A DNA stretch of 64,000 nt from Bacteroidaceae bacterium (GTDB lineage Bacteria; Bacteroidota; Bacteroidia; Bacteroidales; Bacteroidaceae). Numbering within the stretch: the first letter of the stretch is position 1; each line of letters starts with the position of its first letter. Positions 11,467 through 61,930 of the stretch are shown here, piece by piece. Under the pieces are notes generated by a model. The model worked only from the letters and a program-made list of their open reading frames with translations. It had not been told where the DNA came from and did not search any database. The DNA lies in assembly GCA_016291905.1 (NCBI GenBank), contig JAEEZS010000055.1, positions 1 to 64,000 of the forward strand, given 5' to 3'. The position numbers were made by a program, and so were the translations under genes.

Positions 11467-11497
11467 AACCAGAGAACCCAGAAAAGAGCATGACGTT

Positions 11498-13189
11498 ATG
11501 TGTGGAATAGTATCTATTTTCCGTATTAGCAGGCAGCGGCCTGAACTGCGCCGGAAGGCGCTCAGCATGAGTCAGAAAATCCGTCATCGCGGGCCCGACT
11601 GGAGCGGCATCTACTGTGGCAGCACGGCCATCCTGGCCCACGAGCGCCTGAGCATCGTCGACCCCGAGAGCGGCGGACAACCCCTGTTCAGCCCCGACCG
11701 CAAGCAGGTGCTGGCCGTGAACGGCGAAATCTATAATCATCAGGACATCCGACGCCGCTATGTGGGGCAGTTTGACTTCCAGACACGGAGCGACTGCGAG
11801 GTAATCCTGGCGCTGTATCGCGACTTTGCCGAGGGAAACATCACCCTTGAGAGCCTGCTGGAAAGCCTCAGCGGCATCTTTGCCTTTGCGCTCTACGACG
11901 AGGCGCGCGACCAGTTCCTCATTGCCCGCGACCCCATCGGCGTCATCCCGCTCTACATCGGCTACGACAGCGACGGCACCGTCTATGTGGCCTCGGAACT
12001 GAAAGCCCTCGAAGGGCAATGTGAGCGCTACGAGCCGTTCCCCCCTGGGCATTACCTTACTAATACTGAAGATGGACTATTGAATTTTCAATCCTACTAT
12101 CACCGCGACTGGTTCGACTATGCTGCCGTCAAGGACAATCCTGCCAGCGCGGCTGACATCCGCACCGCCCTCACCGCTGCCGTGAAGCGTCAGCTCATGT
12201 CCGACGTGCCCTACGGCGTGCTGCTCTCCGGCGGTCTTGACTCCAGCGTTGTCTCCGCCATCGCCGAGCGGTTCAGCGAGCACCGCATCGAGGACGACTC
12301 GCAGACCCGTGCCTACTGGCCTCGCCTGCACTCGTTCGCCGTCGGACTGAAGGGCGCCCCCGACTTGGAAAAGGCCCGCCTCGTAGCCCAGCACATCGGC
12401 ACCGTGCACCACGAAATCAACTACACCATCCAAGAAGGCCTCGACGCCATCCGCGATGTCATCTACTTCATCGAGACCTACGACGTCACCACCGTGCGCG
12501 CCTCCACCCCTATGTACCTGCTGGCACGCGTCATCAAGTCGATGGGTATCAAGATGGTACTCAGCGGCGAGGGTGCCGACGAGATTTTCGGCGGCTACCT
12601 CTATTTCCATAAGGCTCCCAATGCGCAGGCCTTCCACGAGGAGACCGTCCGCAAGCTCTCCAAGCTCTATCTCTACGACTGCCTCCGCGCCAACAAGAGC
12701 CTCTGTGCGTGGGGCGTCGAGGGGCGTGTGCCCTTCTTGGACAAGGAGTTTCTTGACGTGGCCATGCGGACGAATCCCCAGGCGAAAATGTGCACAGGCT
12801 CCACTATTGAGAAGAAGATTGTGCGCGAGGCTTTTGCCGACCTGCTGCCCGAGGAGGTGGCGTGGCGGCAGAAGGAGCAGTTCAGCGACGGCGTGGGCTA
12901 CTCGTGGATCGACACGCTGAAAGCCGTCACCGCGGCCGCTGTCACCGACGAGCAGCTGGCCCACGCTGCCGAGCGCTTCCCCATCAACCCCCCGAAGAAC
13001 AAAGAGGAGTATTTCTATCGTTCCATCTTTGCCGAGCACTTCCCCAGCGACAGCGCCGCCCGTAGTGTGCCCAGCGAGGCCAGCGTAGCCTGCTCCACCG
13101 CCATCGCCCTCGAGTGGGACGCCGCTTTCAAGAACATGAACGACCCCAGCGGCCGCGCCGTGAAAGGCGTGCACGAACAGGCATACTGA
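11498..13189 (+). CDS. asnB: Asparagine synthase B (glutamine-hydrolysing)
   Basis: Makes asparagine from aspartate, ATP and glutamine. The product begins MCGIVSIFR, so the catalytic N-terminal Cys of the glutaminase domain is exposed after Met removal. The synthetase domain has the ATP-pyrophosphatase loop SGGLDSSVVS near residue 245, GEGADEIFGGY, and ENRVPFLD-like EGRVPFLDKEF. The 563-residue length is normal. It is the third gene after the glnB promoter and probably shares nitrogen control with amt. A short ATTGAA/TTCAAT tract (12079-12092) occurs in frame near residues 195-198. Confidence 0.95.
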   Translation: MCGIVSIFRISRQRPELRRKALSMSQKIRHRGPDWSGIYCGSTAILAHERLSIVDPESGGQPLFSPDRKQVLAVNGEIYNHQDIRRRYVGQFDFQTRSDCEVILALYRDFAEGNITLESLLESLSGIFAFALYDEARDQFLIARDPIGVIPLYIGYDSDGTVYVASELKALEGQCERYEPFPPGHYLTNTEDGLLNFQSYYHRDWFDYAAVKDNPASAADIRTALTAAVKRQLMSDVPYGVLLSGGLDSSVVSAIAERFSEHRIEDDSQTRAYWPRLHSFAVGLKGAPDLEKARLVAQHIGTVHHEINYTIQEGLDAIRDVIYFIETYDVTTVRASTPMYLLARVIKSMGIKMVLSGEGADEIFGGYLYFHKAPNAQAFHEETVRKLSKLYLYDCLRANKSLCAWGVEGRVPFLDKEFLDVAMRTNPQAKMCTGSTIEKKIVREAFADLLPEEVAWRQKEQFSDGVGYSWIDTLKAVTAAAVTDEQLAHAAERFPINPPKNKEEYFYRSIFAEHFPSDSAARSVPSEASVACSTAIALEWDAAFKNMNDPSGRAVKGVHEQAY

Positions 13190-15087: not shown

Positions 15088-16971
15088 ATGAGAAAAGAAA
15101 GTAAAACAGCCTTTGCCTTGTTGGCACTCCTCCTTGTGCCTCTTTTCGTTTGGGGACAGAAAAACATTCCTATGGTTTTGGAAAACGAGTCAGTCAGACA
15201 GTCTGGTCCTCGTTCCCCCTTCCCGCCTCCTACAGTTGTCCTCGACGGTACGACGCTGACCTTTGATTTTGCCACAGCCACAGCCGCGCAGGTCATCATC
15301 GTCAATCCGTCGTCCGACCAGATAGTCTATTCCCACGACTTCGGCTCGTACACCCACCTTTCAATAGATGTATCGCAGGTGTGCGTGCCCGAGGTGCACT
15401 ACAGGATTCGCCTCAAGGCCCATGAGCTATGGTGGTGGGGCGAGTTTGATGCCGAAAAGAAAAAGCCTGTAGGGGACGACGAAAGCTGGTGGTACAACTG
15501 GAATGGGAGAAAGGACATAGAATTAGTGAACGATGATGGCCTGCGTAACGACAGCCTTCAATGCTTCTTGTCGGTTAGCGATATCATCTATATCGGCCAT
15601 GTAAATCCACAGTATTATCGCTACCTTGGCAATCTCATAAGGCAAGATTCAACACTTACAATTGCTAAACTCGATACCACAACGGTTGTTGTCACGCGAG
15701 CGGAAACTAATGATACCGTTTTCATGAGGGGTTATAGAAAATGTGATGATCCCCTACTCCAACTGAATTATCTCGGATTTACTAATGGAGATTACAAGTT
15801 GAACGTTCAGTGGCGCGACTGCTGGTGGAGGGGCGACTTCACGTTCAAATCGCATTGGCCCGAAGGGGAGTACGTGTTCGTTGACAGCGCGTATTACCGG
15901 CTGTACGGAAAATACGCCGCTACCATAGACCCTGCTTATTTAGACAAGCCCGGCACGCTCAGGAGGGGTTGGGATTGGTGTAAGCCCACTTATCGGGACT
16001 ATCCGGATCATCTCGTCATTCCTGAAGAACTCATCTACGAGGGAAAGGCGTACGAGGTTGTCGCTATTGAAAAGCGCTCCTTCTGGCATTGCTATTACCT
16101 GCTGTCGGTTAAGCTCCCGAACACGGTTACCCACATCGACGATGCCGCTTTCATGGACTGCCCGAATCTCCGGCGCATCATTATCCCCTCAAGCGTCACT
16201 TCTTTAGGAGACGGTGTATTCTCGGGTTGTTCAAGACTGCCTGACATAGTCATTCCCGAAGGGATAACTGTAATAAAAGGTTCGACATTTGAAGAATGTG
16301 CAAACATACAGGCCATCACACTTCCAAGTGGGCTTACGAATATCGGGGAGAGGGCTTTCGCTCAATGTACTTCTTTGCCCTACATGGAGATTCCCGACAA
16401 CGTTAAGACCATCGAGGAGGAAGCTTTCTTCCGTTGTTACAACTTAATGGAGATTAAACTACCCAAGAGTCTTAAAAGCATAAAATATAGAACATTCTAT
16501 TTCTGTTCGTCATTGGCGTCGATTGTAATTCCACAGCACGTCAGAAGCATTGGGGATGAGGCTTTCGCGGGCTGCACAAAACTGGCATCTGTCACTCTTC
16601 CCGAAAGCCTGACACAGATTGGCGACAAGGCTTTTGCCGATATGCCCAATTCCGGCCACATCTACTGCTATGCGAAAACTCCTTGTAGGATTAGTGCAAA
16701 TACATTCAACTTCAAGTGCACCCTGCACGTCCCATACGGCTGCAAAAAGAACTATGAGAAAGACGAAGATTGGAAGAAATTCACTAATATCGAGGAGATG
16801 GAAGCAGAAGAATACAGCGAACCCGTGCAATATGGTGAAACGGGCGTCGCGCCTGCTGTGAGTGATGCTGCTGCATCCGACGGACAGCTCTACGACCTCC
16901 AGGGCCGTCCTGCCGACGGAACAAAGAAGGGTATCTATATCCGCAACGGAAAGAAAGTGCTGGTGAGATAA
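15088..16971 (+). CDS. BspA-like leucine-rich repeat surface protein
   Basis: 627 residues. A Sec signal peptide (ALLALLLVPLFVWGQ) is followed by a beta-rich DUF3244-like segment at about 45-125 (LDGTTLTFDF, ending HELWWWGEFDA). LRR_5 repeats of the BspA type occupy about 310-570, each with an I-P-x-x-V-x-x-I-x-x-x-A-F pattern such as IGDEAFAGCTKLASVTLPES. The C terminus (LYDLQGRPADGTKKGIYIRN, then GKKVLVR) is a short conserved tail on Prevotella secreted proteins that resembles type IX sorting signals. Such proteins are often adhesins. It shares its N- and C-terminal modules with the protein at 36830. Confidence 0.8.
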   Translation: MRKESKTAFALLALLLVPLFVWGQKNIPMVLENESVRQSGPRSPFPPPTVVLDGTTLTFDFATATAAQVIIVNPSSDQIVYSHDFGSYTHLSIDVSQVCVPEVHYRIRLKAHELWWWGEFDAEKKKPVGDDESWWYNWNGRKDIELVNDDGLRNDSLQCFLSVSDIIYIGHVNPQYYRYLGNLIRQDSTLTIAKLDTTTVVVTRAETNDTVFMRGYRKCDDPLLQLNYLGFTNGDYKLNVQWRDCWWRGDFTFKSHWPEGEYVFVDSAYYRLYGKYAATIDPAYLDKPGTLRRGWDWCKPTYRDYPDHLVIPEELIYEGKAYEVVAIEKRSFWHCYYLLSVKLPNTVTHIDDAAFMDCPNLRRIIIPSSVTSLGDGVFSGCSRLPDIVIPEGITVIKGSTFEECANIQAITLPSGLTNIGERAFAQCTSLPYMEIPDNVKTIEEEAFFRCYNLMEIKLPKSLKSIKYRTFYFCSSLASIVIPQHVRSIGDEAFAGCTKLASVTLPESLTQIGDKAFADMPNSGHIYCYAKTPCRISANTFNFKCTLHVPYGCKKNYEKDEDWKKFTNIEEMEAEEYSEPVQYGETGVAPAVSDAAASDGQLYDLQGRPADGTKKGIYIRNGKKVLVR

Positions 16972-17120
16972 TATGGGAACAAAGTAAGAAATAAGCCTGC
17001 TTTTATTCGCTTACTTTTTCGATACGATGAATTTTCCCCGCTGCTCGCGACGAGTGGCGGGGATTCATATTGCATCAGGTGTTCATGGCCTCGTAGAGGA
17101 AAAGTAGGTGTGTGGCACGG

Positions 17121-17292
17121 GCGTTTCAGTTGTTTCAGTTTCAGTTAGGTTTTTTGAGGGTATGTTTTTCTCAAATCTCCTTTATAATACTATATAATTA
17201 GTTAATAATAAATATATTATAATATAGAATAAAGAAGGAGAGGGAGAATGGTACCCTTTAAAAAATAACTGAAACAACTGAAACTGAAACGC
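17121..17292. repeat. 172-bp imperfect palindromic element, copy 1
   Basis: The outer left arm is built of the words GTTTCAGTT, GTTTCA and GTTTCAGTT after GC. The right arm carries the complementary words AACTGAAAC and AACTGAAACTGAAAC. Inside are GGGTAT (17158-17163) against GTACCC (17251-17256), CTCC against GGAG, and an AT core. A second copy of identical length lies at 36253-36424. No ORF or transposase is associated. Confidence 0.85.
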
Positions 17293-17561
17293 TAGGCCAT
17301 GTTTATTTTCACCTAAAAGACAATCAGACAACAACATACAACATCACAAAATCGACCATTCAAGTTGTTCCGAAGCTCAAATGAGGCACAAAATGCGTCC
17401 AAATCCTGCCCTTTTAGGGCTCAAAAGACAGCAAAAACCGCTAATTCCGATGTTTTTTCCCTGCATTTGGCACACAAATCAGCGGCGCAGAATTTCAGCA
17501 TTCCGACCTCAAATGGAAGGAAACGTGCGGCATTTGTGGGCGAATCGTGCGTTTTTTTATT

Positions 17562-17624
17562 CCAAGCAACTAATCTCACAGTCCAAGCATCTAATTTGCT
17601 AGCCCAAGCATCTGGCAGCACGAC
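17562..17624 (+). repeat. 21-bp tandem repeat, three units
   Basis: Units start at 17562, 17583 and 17604. Each begins CCAAGCA and the first two continue with (A/T)CTAAT. The third is diverged after CCAAGCATCT. Confidence 0.7.
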
Positions 17625-17675
17625 GCAGTGGAATAATCTGCCATTCCACTTCGCACACGTTAGTTCATAGTTAAA

Positions 17676-28465: not shown

Positions 28466-28540
28466 TTTATAAACACGGCCCGCGTTTATATAAACAGGGG
28501 CCGCGTTTATATAAACAGGGGCGCTGTTTATAAACATCGC
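28466..28540 (+). repeat. 21-bp-period tandem array with TTTATATAAA cores
   Basis: Units start at 28466 (19 bp), 28485 (21 bp), 28506 (21 bp) and 28527 (partial). The two full units read TTTATATAAACAGGGG followed by CCGCG or CGCTG. Confidence 0.8.
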
Positions 28541-36174: not shown

Positions 36175-36252
36175 TGAGTCGGCTAAGCCTGCCTGGCACT
36201 CATGGGCCTCATAGGGACGAAGGGCTTGTAGGAGAGTGAATTGTGTGGACGA

Positions 36253-36424
36253 GCATGTCAGTTATGTCAATTTCAGTTAAGTTTTTGAGGGTATGTGTTT
36301 TCTCAATTCTCCACTATAATACTATATAACTAATTAATAATAAATATATTATAATATATAATAAGGAGGGGAAGCGAGAATGATACCCTTTAAAAAATAA
36401 CTGACATAACTGAAATTGACATGC
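36253..36424. repeat. 172-bp imperfect palindromic element, copy 2
   Basis: The left arm words are ATGTCAGTT, ATGTCA and ATTTCAGTT; the right arm carries AACTGACAT and AACTGAAATTGACAT. GGGTAT (36289-36294) and ATACCC (36383-36388) are exactly symmetric about the centre. The core TTAATAATAAATATATTATA is shared with copy 1. Confidence 0.85.
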
Positions 36425-36744
36425 CTGGCCAAGACTCGTTCCATCTAAAAAGCAATCAGACAATGATATACGATATTACTAAACCGATTTTGCCAATACA
36501 AGTATCTGACGTTTGTAGATATTGCACTTTGTGCAAATAGAATATCAAGCAACGTAACACTTTCTACGAAATATAGGAAAAACGCCTAAAACAGCTACAT
36601 CAAAGGAGTGCATTTTGCGGTTCATCACCCCTTAGTTTGTTACCCTTCCCCCCCCCATTTAACGTATGTTACCCCCCAAATTAACACAAAAAATACCACG
36701 TTTTGACACACTAAATTTCGGGGTTTTTCCTCGCTATATAAAAA

Positions 36745-36829: not shown

Positions 36830-38584
36830 ATGAGAAAGACATTAACAGCCCTCTTTACCCTTCTCCTTTTTGTTGGAGCCGTGCAAGCCCGTACCAACAT
36901 CCCCTTGGTAAAGGACACCTCTCACGGAGGAAATGAAGACGACCGCGCTCGCACAGCTGTCCCTGAAACGGCTCCTCTGGCCTATTTGGACGGCAATGTG
37001 TTGGCAATCGAATTTCCTGAAGACGGAACAGCACAGGTACAAATCTGCACACAAGAAACCGAAGCCATTGTGTTTACAGGAACATTCACAACAGTTACAG
37101 CCGAAGAAATCACCATTGACTTGCAAAGCAACCACATTGGTGTGGGAAGCTATTACCTGCGCGTCTTTTTTCTCAACCAATGGTGGAAAGGCCTTTTCGA
37201 TGTGGAGGATGCGAATAAACAGCCCGTCAAAGATACCGAAAAATACTTTACCAAACGTACACGCTGGGTGGAACAATGGTACACTCCTGGCACAGAACCT
37301 GAATACTCCTCTGTGAAGATTTATTCTATAGGCAAGGACGTCGTTTTCAACGACATCACCTACAAAGAGGTGCTTATCGACGGAAATGAGTCGGGCATGT
37401 GGCTGCGCGAGGAGGACGACAAGGTGTTTCTGCGTCGCGACGATTTTCCGCACGAGATTATGCTCTACGATTTCGACTGGACAGACAAGGAGTCTATCAA
37501 ACGCCAGTACATCGAAAAGGGAGAACTGAAGGAAGAGGTCATTCCCATCACCTCCATTAAGGAAATGGCGCTTGATGATGAAGGCGGATGGGCTTTTACT
37601 GACTACATCGACGTGGGCGACACTAAAATAATCAAAGGCATAGGGCTTATTTGTGAGCATACGAAGGACTGCTGTCTTTTAGGTAGCGTTGTCCCTGACG
37701 ATATTCCTCCTGTGAATGCCGAATGTCGATTGCTCAGTTTTACTAAAAGCTATTACGGAGCTTCACCCTATTTCCTCTATCAACACCGAGATGCTATTCA
37801 TGAGTTTTTCTCGTATAATGGCACACGTTCGGGAGTGGATATATTCTTCTATTCCCCTTGGCCCTATTCCTTGAAAAACCTGCATCAAGAACTTGATAGC
37901 ATCAGCAACAACGTCATCTACATCAGCAGCCATTACAACTCTACGGCCAACGATTCGTATTACGGAAAGGCTGAAGTTAAGTTTGGACGTCTCGAAGCCG
38001 GAGACTACACAATACGCATGACGGCAGTCGATGATGCAGGAATTGAGACAGACAACCGCGTGATGGAACTACCCCTTACGGTAACAAAGAATCCCGTGGA
38101 TGCCCTTTGCGGAATTGTCCCTTCCAACTGCAATAAAGAAGAGGAAGAGGAAGAATTCGACTATGAACATTTTGACCGTAACACCTACTTCCCTGATATA
38201 ACGATTACGCAAGAGGGAGACAGCCTGCACGTTACGGGTCTACTCTTTTATACCTGCTGCGTCGATCACTATTGCTATTACGAAATTCACGATAATTCCG
38301 TTTATCTGGAAGGCATAGAAAACAGTTGGAGCGGACTCGCATGTATGTGCCATTCACGGTTTACGGTTGACTTTAAGATTGGCCCTTTCAAGGGAGATAA
38401 AATCGATTTACATATAAAAGAAATGTACACGTCAGAATTCCATAAGACCTTCGAATTCACTTCTGCCAGATTCCCTGAGAAGGAGGAAACGGTTTCTACG
38501 TCCTATGACTTACTGGGCCGTCCTGCGAAAGAGACGCAAAAGGGTATTCTTGTCCGCAACGGGAAAAAAGTGATTATCAACTAA
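36830..38584 (+). CDS. Secreted DUF3244-like protein with Prevotella-type C-terminal tail
   Basis: The start is ATG 36830 (MRKTLTALFTLLLFVGAVQA, signal peptide). 584 residues. Residues of about 45-125 (LAYLDGNVLAIEFPEDGTAQ to NQWWKGLFDVED) match the beta domain at the N terminus of the protein at 15088. The middle is acidic and beta-rich with no LRRs. The C-terminal tail (SYDLLGRPAKETQKGILVRN, then GKKVIIN) is nearly the same as in 15088. Probably a cell-surface or secreted protein. Function unknown. Confidence 0.72.
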   Translation: MRKTLTALFTLLLFVGAVQARTNIPLVKDTSHGGNEDDRARTAVPETAPLAYLDGNVLAIEFPEDGTAQVQICTQETEAIVFTGTFTTVTAEEITIDLQSNHIGVGSYYLRVFFLNQWWKGLFDVEDANKQPVKDTEKYFTKRTRWVEQWYTPGTEPEYSSVKIYSIGKDVVFNDITYKEVLIDGNESGMWLREEDDKVFLRRDDFPHEIMLYDFDWTDKESIKRQYIEKGELKEEVIPITSIKEMALDDEGGWAFTDYIDVGDTKIIKGIGLICEHTKDCCLLGSVVPDDIPPVNAECRLLSFTKSYYGASPYFLYQHRDAIHEFFSYNGTRSGVDIFFYSPWPYSLKNLHQELDSISNNVIYISSHYNSTANDSYYGKAEVKFGRLEAGDYTIRMTAVDDAGIETDNRVMELPLTVTKNPVDALCGIVPSNCNKEEEEEEFDYEHFDRNTYFPDITITQEGDSLHVTGLLFYTCCVDHYCYYEIHDNSVYLEGIENSWSGLACMCHSRFTVDFKIGPFKGDKIDLHIKEMYTSEFHKTFEFTSARFPEKEETVSTSYDLLGRPAKETQKGILVRNGKKVIIN

Positions 38585-38605
38585 CATAGAAAGTTTCCGA
38601 AAAAG

Positions 38606-48179: not shown

Positions 48180-48229
48180 ATTCTATTGTTTATTGATGTT
48201 GCTCGTTAGGTTGCTCCTTTGGCAAAATC

Positions 48230-48284
48230 AGAAGGGCCTTCTGTGAAATTAACAGGGCCTTCTGGCGAAATAGAAGGGCCTTCT
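48230..48284. repeat. 21-bp-period array with AGAAGGGCCTTCT units
   Basis: Unit starts at 48230, 48251 and 48272, exactly 21 bp apart. The core AGAAGGGCCTTCT is nearly palindromic; the second unit reads AACAGGGCCTTCT. It lies between divergent leuS and the CDF-like gene. Confidence 0.8.
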
Positions 48285-48445
48285 GGGGATTTAGTTGCTC
48301 TGTTTCTTTTACCTTTTTTAGACGATTTTTTGCCTGTTTACTGAAATTGGGCGCAAAATTACTATTTTCCACATTGTTTTCCAACTGAAAACTCTGTTTT
48401 CAGCTTTTTATTCGATTTTCATGTGCAGATTTGCCAAAAAAACCG

Positions 48446-55589: not shown

Positions 55590-55629
55590 AAGAAAGGCCC
55601 TTCTGAAATCTTAGAAGGGCTTTTTCTTA
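55590..55629 (+). terminator. Intrinsic terminator of the LRR lipoprotein gene
   Basis: Arms GGCCCTTCT and AGAAGGGC, extended by AAGAAA and TTTTTCTT, ending in a T run. Confidence 0.8.
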
Positions 55630-61843: not shown

Positions 61844-61930
61844 AGGCCTTTTCCTTCCCGCAGAAGGGCCTTTCGGCAAATTAGAAGGCCCTTTCCACCG
61901 CTCAGAAGGCCCTTTTAGCACTCTAGATGA
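61841..61930 (+). repeat. 21-bp-period array starting at a stop codon
   Basis: Units start at 61841, 61862, 61883, 61904 and 61925 (partial), all 21 bp apart. Most begin AGAAGG(G/C)CC; the first begins TAAAGGCC, where TAA is the stop of the upstream gene. Confidence 0.8.

Follow-up and report, generated by a model that had tools for sequence, protein, structure and literature searches.

A palindromic array of six-nucleotide words as a putative replication origin beside a predicted helicase-like gene in Prevotella-like bacteria

The window analyzed here, a 64,000-nt stretch of DNA from a Bacteroidaceae bacterium, contains two copies of a palindrome for which an earlier note had offered three readings: a non-autonomous mobile element, a structured RNA, or a protein-binding palindrome. 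The last of these is supported by covariation between bases of the palindrome and residues of the protein encoded by a neighboring gene, gene B. We propose that the palindrome is an array of binding sites for protein B and most likely the replication origin of the gene cluster to which both belong, a reading that we consider quite probable on the strength of comparative sequence analysis.

Palindrome copies in the window and in related genomes

As had been noticed from the sequence, two copies of 172 bp each lie at 17121-17292 (copy a) and 36253-36424 (copy b). They are 85.5% identical, with 52.9% being the best value among 200 random pairs of 172-mers from the window. The inverted layout is also confirmed, with arm scores of 18 for copy a and 16 for copy b; the top score of 14 was reached by one of 291 random 300-nt pieces drawn from the window, and 200 block shuffles of copy a peaked at 12. 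The arrangement is more specific than was first described, in that each arm is made of three copies of one 6-nt word. When this word is written as U, the left arm may, for example, read U-GTT-U-U-GTTA and the right arm be the inverse of U-U-GTT-U-GTTA, while in some copies the order U-U-GTT-U-GTTA is found on both sides. The two window copies differ in their word (GTTTCA in copy a and ATGTCA in copy b), and the words seen include GTTTCA, ATGTCA, ATTACA, GTAACA, GTTCCA, ATCTCA, and CTTACA. Some copies carry mixed words; for instance, one word of three deviates in the arm of copy b.

The flanks show that the repeated unit is larger than the palindrome. The right-flank similarity that had been claimed belongs to a 190-nt ungapped direct repeat (17166-17355 and 36298-36487; 81% identical), and it runs into the start of a decayed gene B, at 17334 and 36463. 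The weak similarity of the left flanks is real as well and corresponds to the 3' tip of another gene, gene A (GGCCTC..). The statement that the element has no coding capacity is therefore correct for the 172 bp and incorrect for the whole repeated unit, which holds gene remnants. The window copies are relics, each consisting of the tip of gene A, a complete palindrome, and the broken 5' end of gene B (Table 1).

Table 1. Positions of the parts of the two relics within the window
Feature	Position	Strand	Remarks
Copy a, 3' tip of gene A remnant	17087-17107	+	Reads GLVEEK*; left end region of the relic; left ends recur at this part of A in other copies
Copy a, left arm	17121-17147	+	Three words GTTTCA at 17123-17128, 17132-17137, and 17138-17143
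Copy a, AT-rich core	17148-17265	.	Central 62 nt, 85.5% AT; window, 52.7% GC
Copy a, right arm	17266-17292	-	Three inverted words at 17270-17275, 17279-17284, and 17285-17290
Copy a, gene B remnant	17334-17543	+	First 70 codons, without the start codon and with three stops
Copy b, 3' tip of gene A remnant	36205-36222	+	
Copy b, left arm	36253-36279	+	Words ATGTCA, ATGTCA, and ATTTCA
Copy b, AT-rich core	36280-36397	.	Central 62 nt, 82.3% AT
Copy b, right arm	36398-36424	-	Inverted words
Copy b, gene B remnant	36463-36540	+	Start retained; stop after 25 codons; match to intact B limited to the first eight codons (MIYDITKP)

Other repeats were observed in the window. A second intergenic family (ATTCCAAGCAACTATTCTCACAGCCCAATGGGC.. 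/ AGCCCAAGGGAATAA) is found at about 17560-17640, after the gene B remnant, as it is in many relics. In the genome from which the window derives (G000, whose contigs are given as C numbers), its places are C65, C33, C6, C21, C1, C73, C44, and C46, those at C44 and C46 being without a B remnant. These repeats to the right of the B remnant form a family separate from the palindrome unit. A tandem hairpin repeat, TTTATAAACACGG.CCGCGTTTATATAAACAGGGGC, lies at 28466-28534 and also at C6, C65, C1, and C46 of the same genome, and a word like AGAAGGGCCTTCTG recurs at three places (48229-48303, 55591-55623, and 61861-61893). Positions 16890-16979 and 38503-38592 correspond to a C-terminal tail of about 30 amino acids common to two otherwise different DUF3244 proteins, of which one has BspA-type repeats; the tail is possibly a secretion signal.

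The earlier note had named a lack of further copies in related genomes as grounds for refutation and had suggested a covariance-model search; copies proved to be numerous, both in the own genome and in related ones. A 301-nt query matched 15 places in G000, down to an E value of 6.8e-18 (reverse-complement matches of the same places aside). The covariance model R2 identified 17 separate places in this genome at E 0.01 or better, of which 14 are complete and 3 are cut at contig ends (C1, C30, and C33:1); this is a count of places, as two cut places may derive from a single copy. The copies on C29 and C66 are cut too and score E 0.367, above the threshold. Because several copies sit at contig ends, the assembly may have lost or misjoined repeats, and given a contamination of 4.06%, a few copies may come from another strain. 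A similar array with TGTTAC-type words occurs at C18:148-293 (L330:148-293), with no B behind it and a UvrA-like protein encoded by the next large open reading frame.

Beyond this genome, BLASTN found a match in 9 of the 19 genomes from the genus, counting G000 itself, and in none of 42 others. R2 matched 59 of 301 sampled genomes of the family at E 0.01, spanning 13 of 30 genera, with copy numbers per genome being lower bounds, since at most nine candidates were scored in each. Most genomes searched are fragmented drafts, and most records in the set of 257 B relatives are metagenome assemblies by title. Phage records gave nothing beyond short matches to Staphylococcus phages (5 records; query coverage, 11%), plasmid records yielded no palindrome match, and protein B had no match in phage or plasmid records at E 0.001. 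In IMG/VR, 249 stretches matched a pattern, and one of them (L290) encodes a B relative.

Relic sites were also compared across other genomes (G003, G009, G016, and G017). In G003 and G016, two genes abut in an operon junction without an insert, while at the same place G017 has an insert of about 814 nt that holds a relic; G009 shares the left junction of the G017 insert site, on a contig that stops shortly beyond it. The place of copy b measures about 119 nt in G009 versus about 543 nt in the window. The proposed check for empty sites and target duplications revealed an insert-free site in G003 and G016 and no duplication by eye at the G017/G003 site, where the junctions are not clean. Relic left ends fall at two positions near the end of gene A that recur at several places, and right ends vary inside gene B.

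Among eight relics of the own genome (28 pairs), the core is 87% identical, the arms 84%, and the right side 68%; the left-side value of 57% is not comparable, as two copies are cut there. This conservation of core and arms is consistent with the array being under selection or in recent use, with the qualification that the core value may be inflated by its AT-rich composition. Six relics of G003 and G016 have cores that are on average 87% identical (15 pairs) and 82% identity over 150 nt of left flank, and they carry differing words (GTTTCA, ATTACA, or GTAACA/ATAACA), a pattern consistent with the word being altered at its several positions while the core is retained. At G016:C48, G009:C53, G003:C2, and G016:C10, two relics lie within about 1 kb of each other.

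The gene cluster and protein B

In complete clusters, the palindrome occupies the gap before gene B (about 435 amino acids), and the conserved right flank in other genera can be read as a protein N terminus, M(K)YDITK... Gene A comes first, then the palindrome, B, and a primase gene, C, often followed by DUF4248, HU-like, and M15 endolysin-like genes. For instance, the complete cluster of G003 (L088) comprises A, the palindrome, B, C, DUF4248, HU-like, small genes, and M15. The same order is present in the own genome, split over contigs C66 and C16, whose joining we infer from identical half palindromes (124 nt) and flanks shared with G003. Pfam assigned gene C to Zn_ribbon_DnaG (PF01807, the CHC2 zinc finger), with Toprim_2 below the cut-off, and the downstream genes to DUF4248, HU-HIG, and Peptidase_M15_3; it returned no family for gene A or gene B (for B, none at E 0.01). 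PHROGs identified C as a primase and the M15 protein as an endolysin.

The palindrome lies 33 to 77 nt upstream of B in all 20 short-B loci tested (2 of 22 were left out as fragments), and 19 of these beat all 20 of their own shuffles, with L186 tying. No array was found upstream of long B relatives in 8 of 8 cases, one of which (L204) has an unrelated GC-rich repeat. Our main unit finder demanded a word ending in CA; when that demand was dropped and one short locus was left out, an inverted 6-mer, at least 2+2, was found upstream of B in 92 of 93 loci, 81 of which contain CA, compared with 8 of 93 for direct order and 3 of 93 for shuffles. A tblastn search with two A queries placed gene A before B in 16 of 20 loci; nothing was matched in L184, L185, or L196, and L178 is truncated in this region.

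No integrase was seen by eye in the 16 largest neighbor groups around 74 B loci, three representatives of which were run through Pfam. A resolvase-type serine recombinase (PF00239) is encoded about 2.4 kb upstream of A at L292:381-908. Upstream of the B cluster on the IMG/VR contig (L290:878-8814), the weak ParB-like, SNF2 helicase, and S24 peptidase genes are reminiscent of defense-island cargo. Near another B cluster, genes at L293:3329-5773 and 11468-11944 encode a type I restriction-modification-like methylase/specificity protein and a DUF3990 protein.

Proteins of the B group are about 25 to 35% identical to longer proteins, mostly of 760 to 880 amino acids, from the same family of bacteria, which we take to be DUF3987-like. 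The AlphaFold model of B predicts a C-terminal winged helix-turn-helix, in which a helix at residues 399 to 411 is followed by two strands (block pLDDT, 86 to 92). A fold search against viral models gave 44 matches at E 0.001 or better, several of them named DUF3987 or primase/helicase. Among PDB chains, one, an MCM subunit, was at the E 0.001 level (best E, 6.6e-4; TMq, 0.33), and SCCmec Cch appeared at rank 21 with modest similarity (E 0.039); a sequence search of the PDB found no relative of B. The fold search supports a helicase-like body for the B model, at low TM-scores.

Covariation of the word with the predicted recognition helix

The clusters of G000 (GTTTCA) and G003 (ATGTCA) are 97% identical in A and 94% in B, and of the 28 aligned differences in B, 10 fall in residues 395 to 421, 13 in residues 1 to 394, and 5 after residue 421. 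Gene A was rejected as the word reader, as it is 95 to 97% identical between clusters with different words.

To generalize the comparison, 100 B loci were collected (the 20 short-B loci and 80 of the 257 B relatives). Six had no start recognizable by pattern, and of the 94 that were aligned, 8 with weak or missing units and 7 with identical proteins were dropped, leaving 79 distinct B proteins. Among 432 columns, residue 407 is the best predictor of base 1 of the word and residue 408 the best predictor of base 4. With G at base 1, residue 407 is R in 46 of 49 proteins; with C, it is Y in 12 of 14; and with A, it is N or S in 12 of 16. Base 4 C coincides with K408 in 38 of 38 units, while units with A at base 4 have mixed residues at 408 (Q 8, V 4, H 3, and K 3). 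Base 3 has no clean reader in the helix; its top-z columns lie outside the helix, and residue 404 reaches a p value of 0.012 on the tree described below.

Predictions drawn from sequences less than 75% identical were correct for base 1 in 64 of 79 cases (majority rule, 49; nearest such relative, 33) and for base 4 in 70 (majority rule, 13; nearest such relative, 37); always guessing the commonest base gives 49 and 38 of 79, respectively. With an identity cut of 70%, the gain was smaller (base 1, 58 of 79 versus 43; base 4, 31 of 79 versus 13). Pairs at least 80% identical outside the helix were compared as well. Where base 1 is different, so is residue 407 in 154 of 173 pairs, and where base 1 is the same, residue 407 differs in 28 of 322; the corresponding counts for base 4 and residue 408 are 173 of 193 and 29 of 302. 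Because such pairs are not independent, joint changes were also counted on a tree from which the helix had been excluded. Changes of base 4 and of residue 408 coincide on one branch in about 13 of 18 cases (p 1.7e-10), and those of base 1 and residue 407 in about 12.5 of 23 (p 2.8e-6); in both cases the residue ranks first among 285 columns. The four best columns for base 4 are 408, 404, 407, and 413, all in or beside the helix.

The rule fixed from the 79 proteins was then applied to 37 further loci (L302 to L304 left out), of which 3 had no B by pattern, 10 were already in the set, 6 had no unit, and 18 were usable. Base 4 was right in 16 of 17 predictions and base 1 in 12 of 17. Four of the five base 1 errors are HQLNVW helices with GTCTCA, indicating that N407 is not a clean reader of A. 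The second short B of the own genome (C19, L291), with helix KHQISVW and word ATCTCA, agrees with the rule. The view that the word and the predicted recognition helix of B change together, giving several specificity groups, is supported by these data, and so the arms are very likely binding sites for B.

Candidate function of the array and its alternatives

We consider it probable that the palindrome acts as an iteron-type origin of replication working like SaPI Rep/ori. The winged helix-turn-helix of B would bind the words directly, and B would assemble on both sides of the array; its helicase-like body would open the AT core, and primase C would prime synthesis. Relics may have spread, or been kept, because intact B acts on them in trans.

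The inverted words could instead be an operator where B represses its own promoter, with no replication starting there. The sites are indeed 33 to 77 nt upstream of B, and winged helix-turn-helix proteins are frequent repressors of their own genes. However, six sites around a long AT-rich core, a primase neighbor, and a helicase-like body exceed the needs of a repressor, and relics retain the whole array without intact B, so that we regard this explanation as unlikely. Far less credible is a MITE moved by a transposase through terminal inverted repeats, with B and the words incidental. The broader suggestion of a non-autonomous mobile element is partly supported by dispersed copies without intact B, a site without an insert, and recurrent left ends; no clean target duplication was seen. 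As for a MITE, homology extends beyond the palindrome on both sides, such that the terminal inverted repeats are not at the ends of the element; moreover, right ends vary, and the same array is upstream of intact B in several genera.

For a structured RNA, in which the + strand would form an extended hairpin within the leader of B, RNAalifold, pair counts, and two covariance models gave apparent covariation; this reading was set aside on finding the protein link, with R2 being kept as a search tool. Fold energies gave z values of -3.1 (145 nt of copy a), -4.2 (its inner 123 nt), and -1.8 (148 nt of copy b) for pieces without the full right arm, and the RNA covariation score was 0.252 versus 0.112 for shuffles, none of 500 shuffles scoring as high. 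Nevertheless, inverted protein sites that change together are expected to give the same signal, and the compensatory changes fall at word positions that track residues of the predicted DNA-reading helix. Furthermore, the unit order (left U-GTT-U-U, right inverse U-U-GTT-U) would interrupt a continuous stem with bulges in many copies, and Rfam had 0 matches at the gathering score in the 64-kb window. We therefore judge an RNA function highly improbable.

The proposed origin has parallels in known systems. In staphylococci, SaPI Rep and SCCmec Cch2 are described as initiator helicases that recognize iterons next to their gene through the C-terminal domain (PMC7581432). Like SaPI Rep/ori and SCCmec Cch/Cch2 as presented there, the B cluster would combine a putative helicase-type initiator with a predicted C-terminal DNA-binding domain, short repeated words beside the initiator gene, a primase gene nearby, and a putative mobile element (PMC7581432). 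Unlike SaPI, where the array is downstream, the array here is upstream of B, and primase C is DnaG-like (CHC2), whereas the SaPI primases named in that study are AEP (PMC7581432). Because primase type and array position differ, we do not file the cluster as a SaPI replicon. Also, no sequence relationship was detected between B and the SaPI/SCCmec initiators, and with regard to homology with Rep, Cch, and Cch2, fold matches to MCM and Cch are weak, with phage DUF3987 proteins being stronger.

Herpes simplex oriL and oriS are palindromes with an AT-rich center flanked by inverted sites of the origin-binding protein, a similar layout with unrelated proteins and hosts. Geminiviruses are plant single-stranded DNA viruses that use rolling-circle replication, and their Rep is unrelated to B. 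Their iterons, as in the present case, are short words upstream of the replication gene that vary among close relatives; PMC12548392 cites earlier work for their binding by the cognate Rep and itself reports iteron identity to be dispensable for replication in one geminivirus. Within the Bacteroidales, Porphyromonas gingivalis has a MITE with a minisatellite, described in PMC4596501 and likewise a dispersed repeat with inverted ends and internal direct repeats; unlike that MITE, the array described here is part of a gene cluster that encodes a putative reader protein of its own. Searches combining DUF3987, Bacteroides, and origin of replication, or Prevotella, phage satellite, and replication origin, retrieved nothing from the open-licence literature, which is weak evidence of absence.

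A more tentative idea, which we think possible and somewhat doubtful, is that the origin-only relics (about 0.5 kb, with hardly anything besides a matching origin) are parasites of the B replicon that multiply and reinsert via B in trans and that pressure to evade them and to avoid cross-talk drives the fast joint change of word and helix. If true, an origin-level arms race would be recorded in gut bacteria.

The covariation amounts to a naturally occurring collection of protein-DNA reading rules, involving two residues and two bases, for a putative replication initiator. It also serves as a caution that compensatory changes in a palindrome can stem from protein sites and not from RNA folding. 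Finally, the array suggests that Prevotella-like bacteria of the rumen and gut harbor a replicon family, and it offers a candidate origin for vectors in these organisms.
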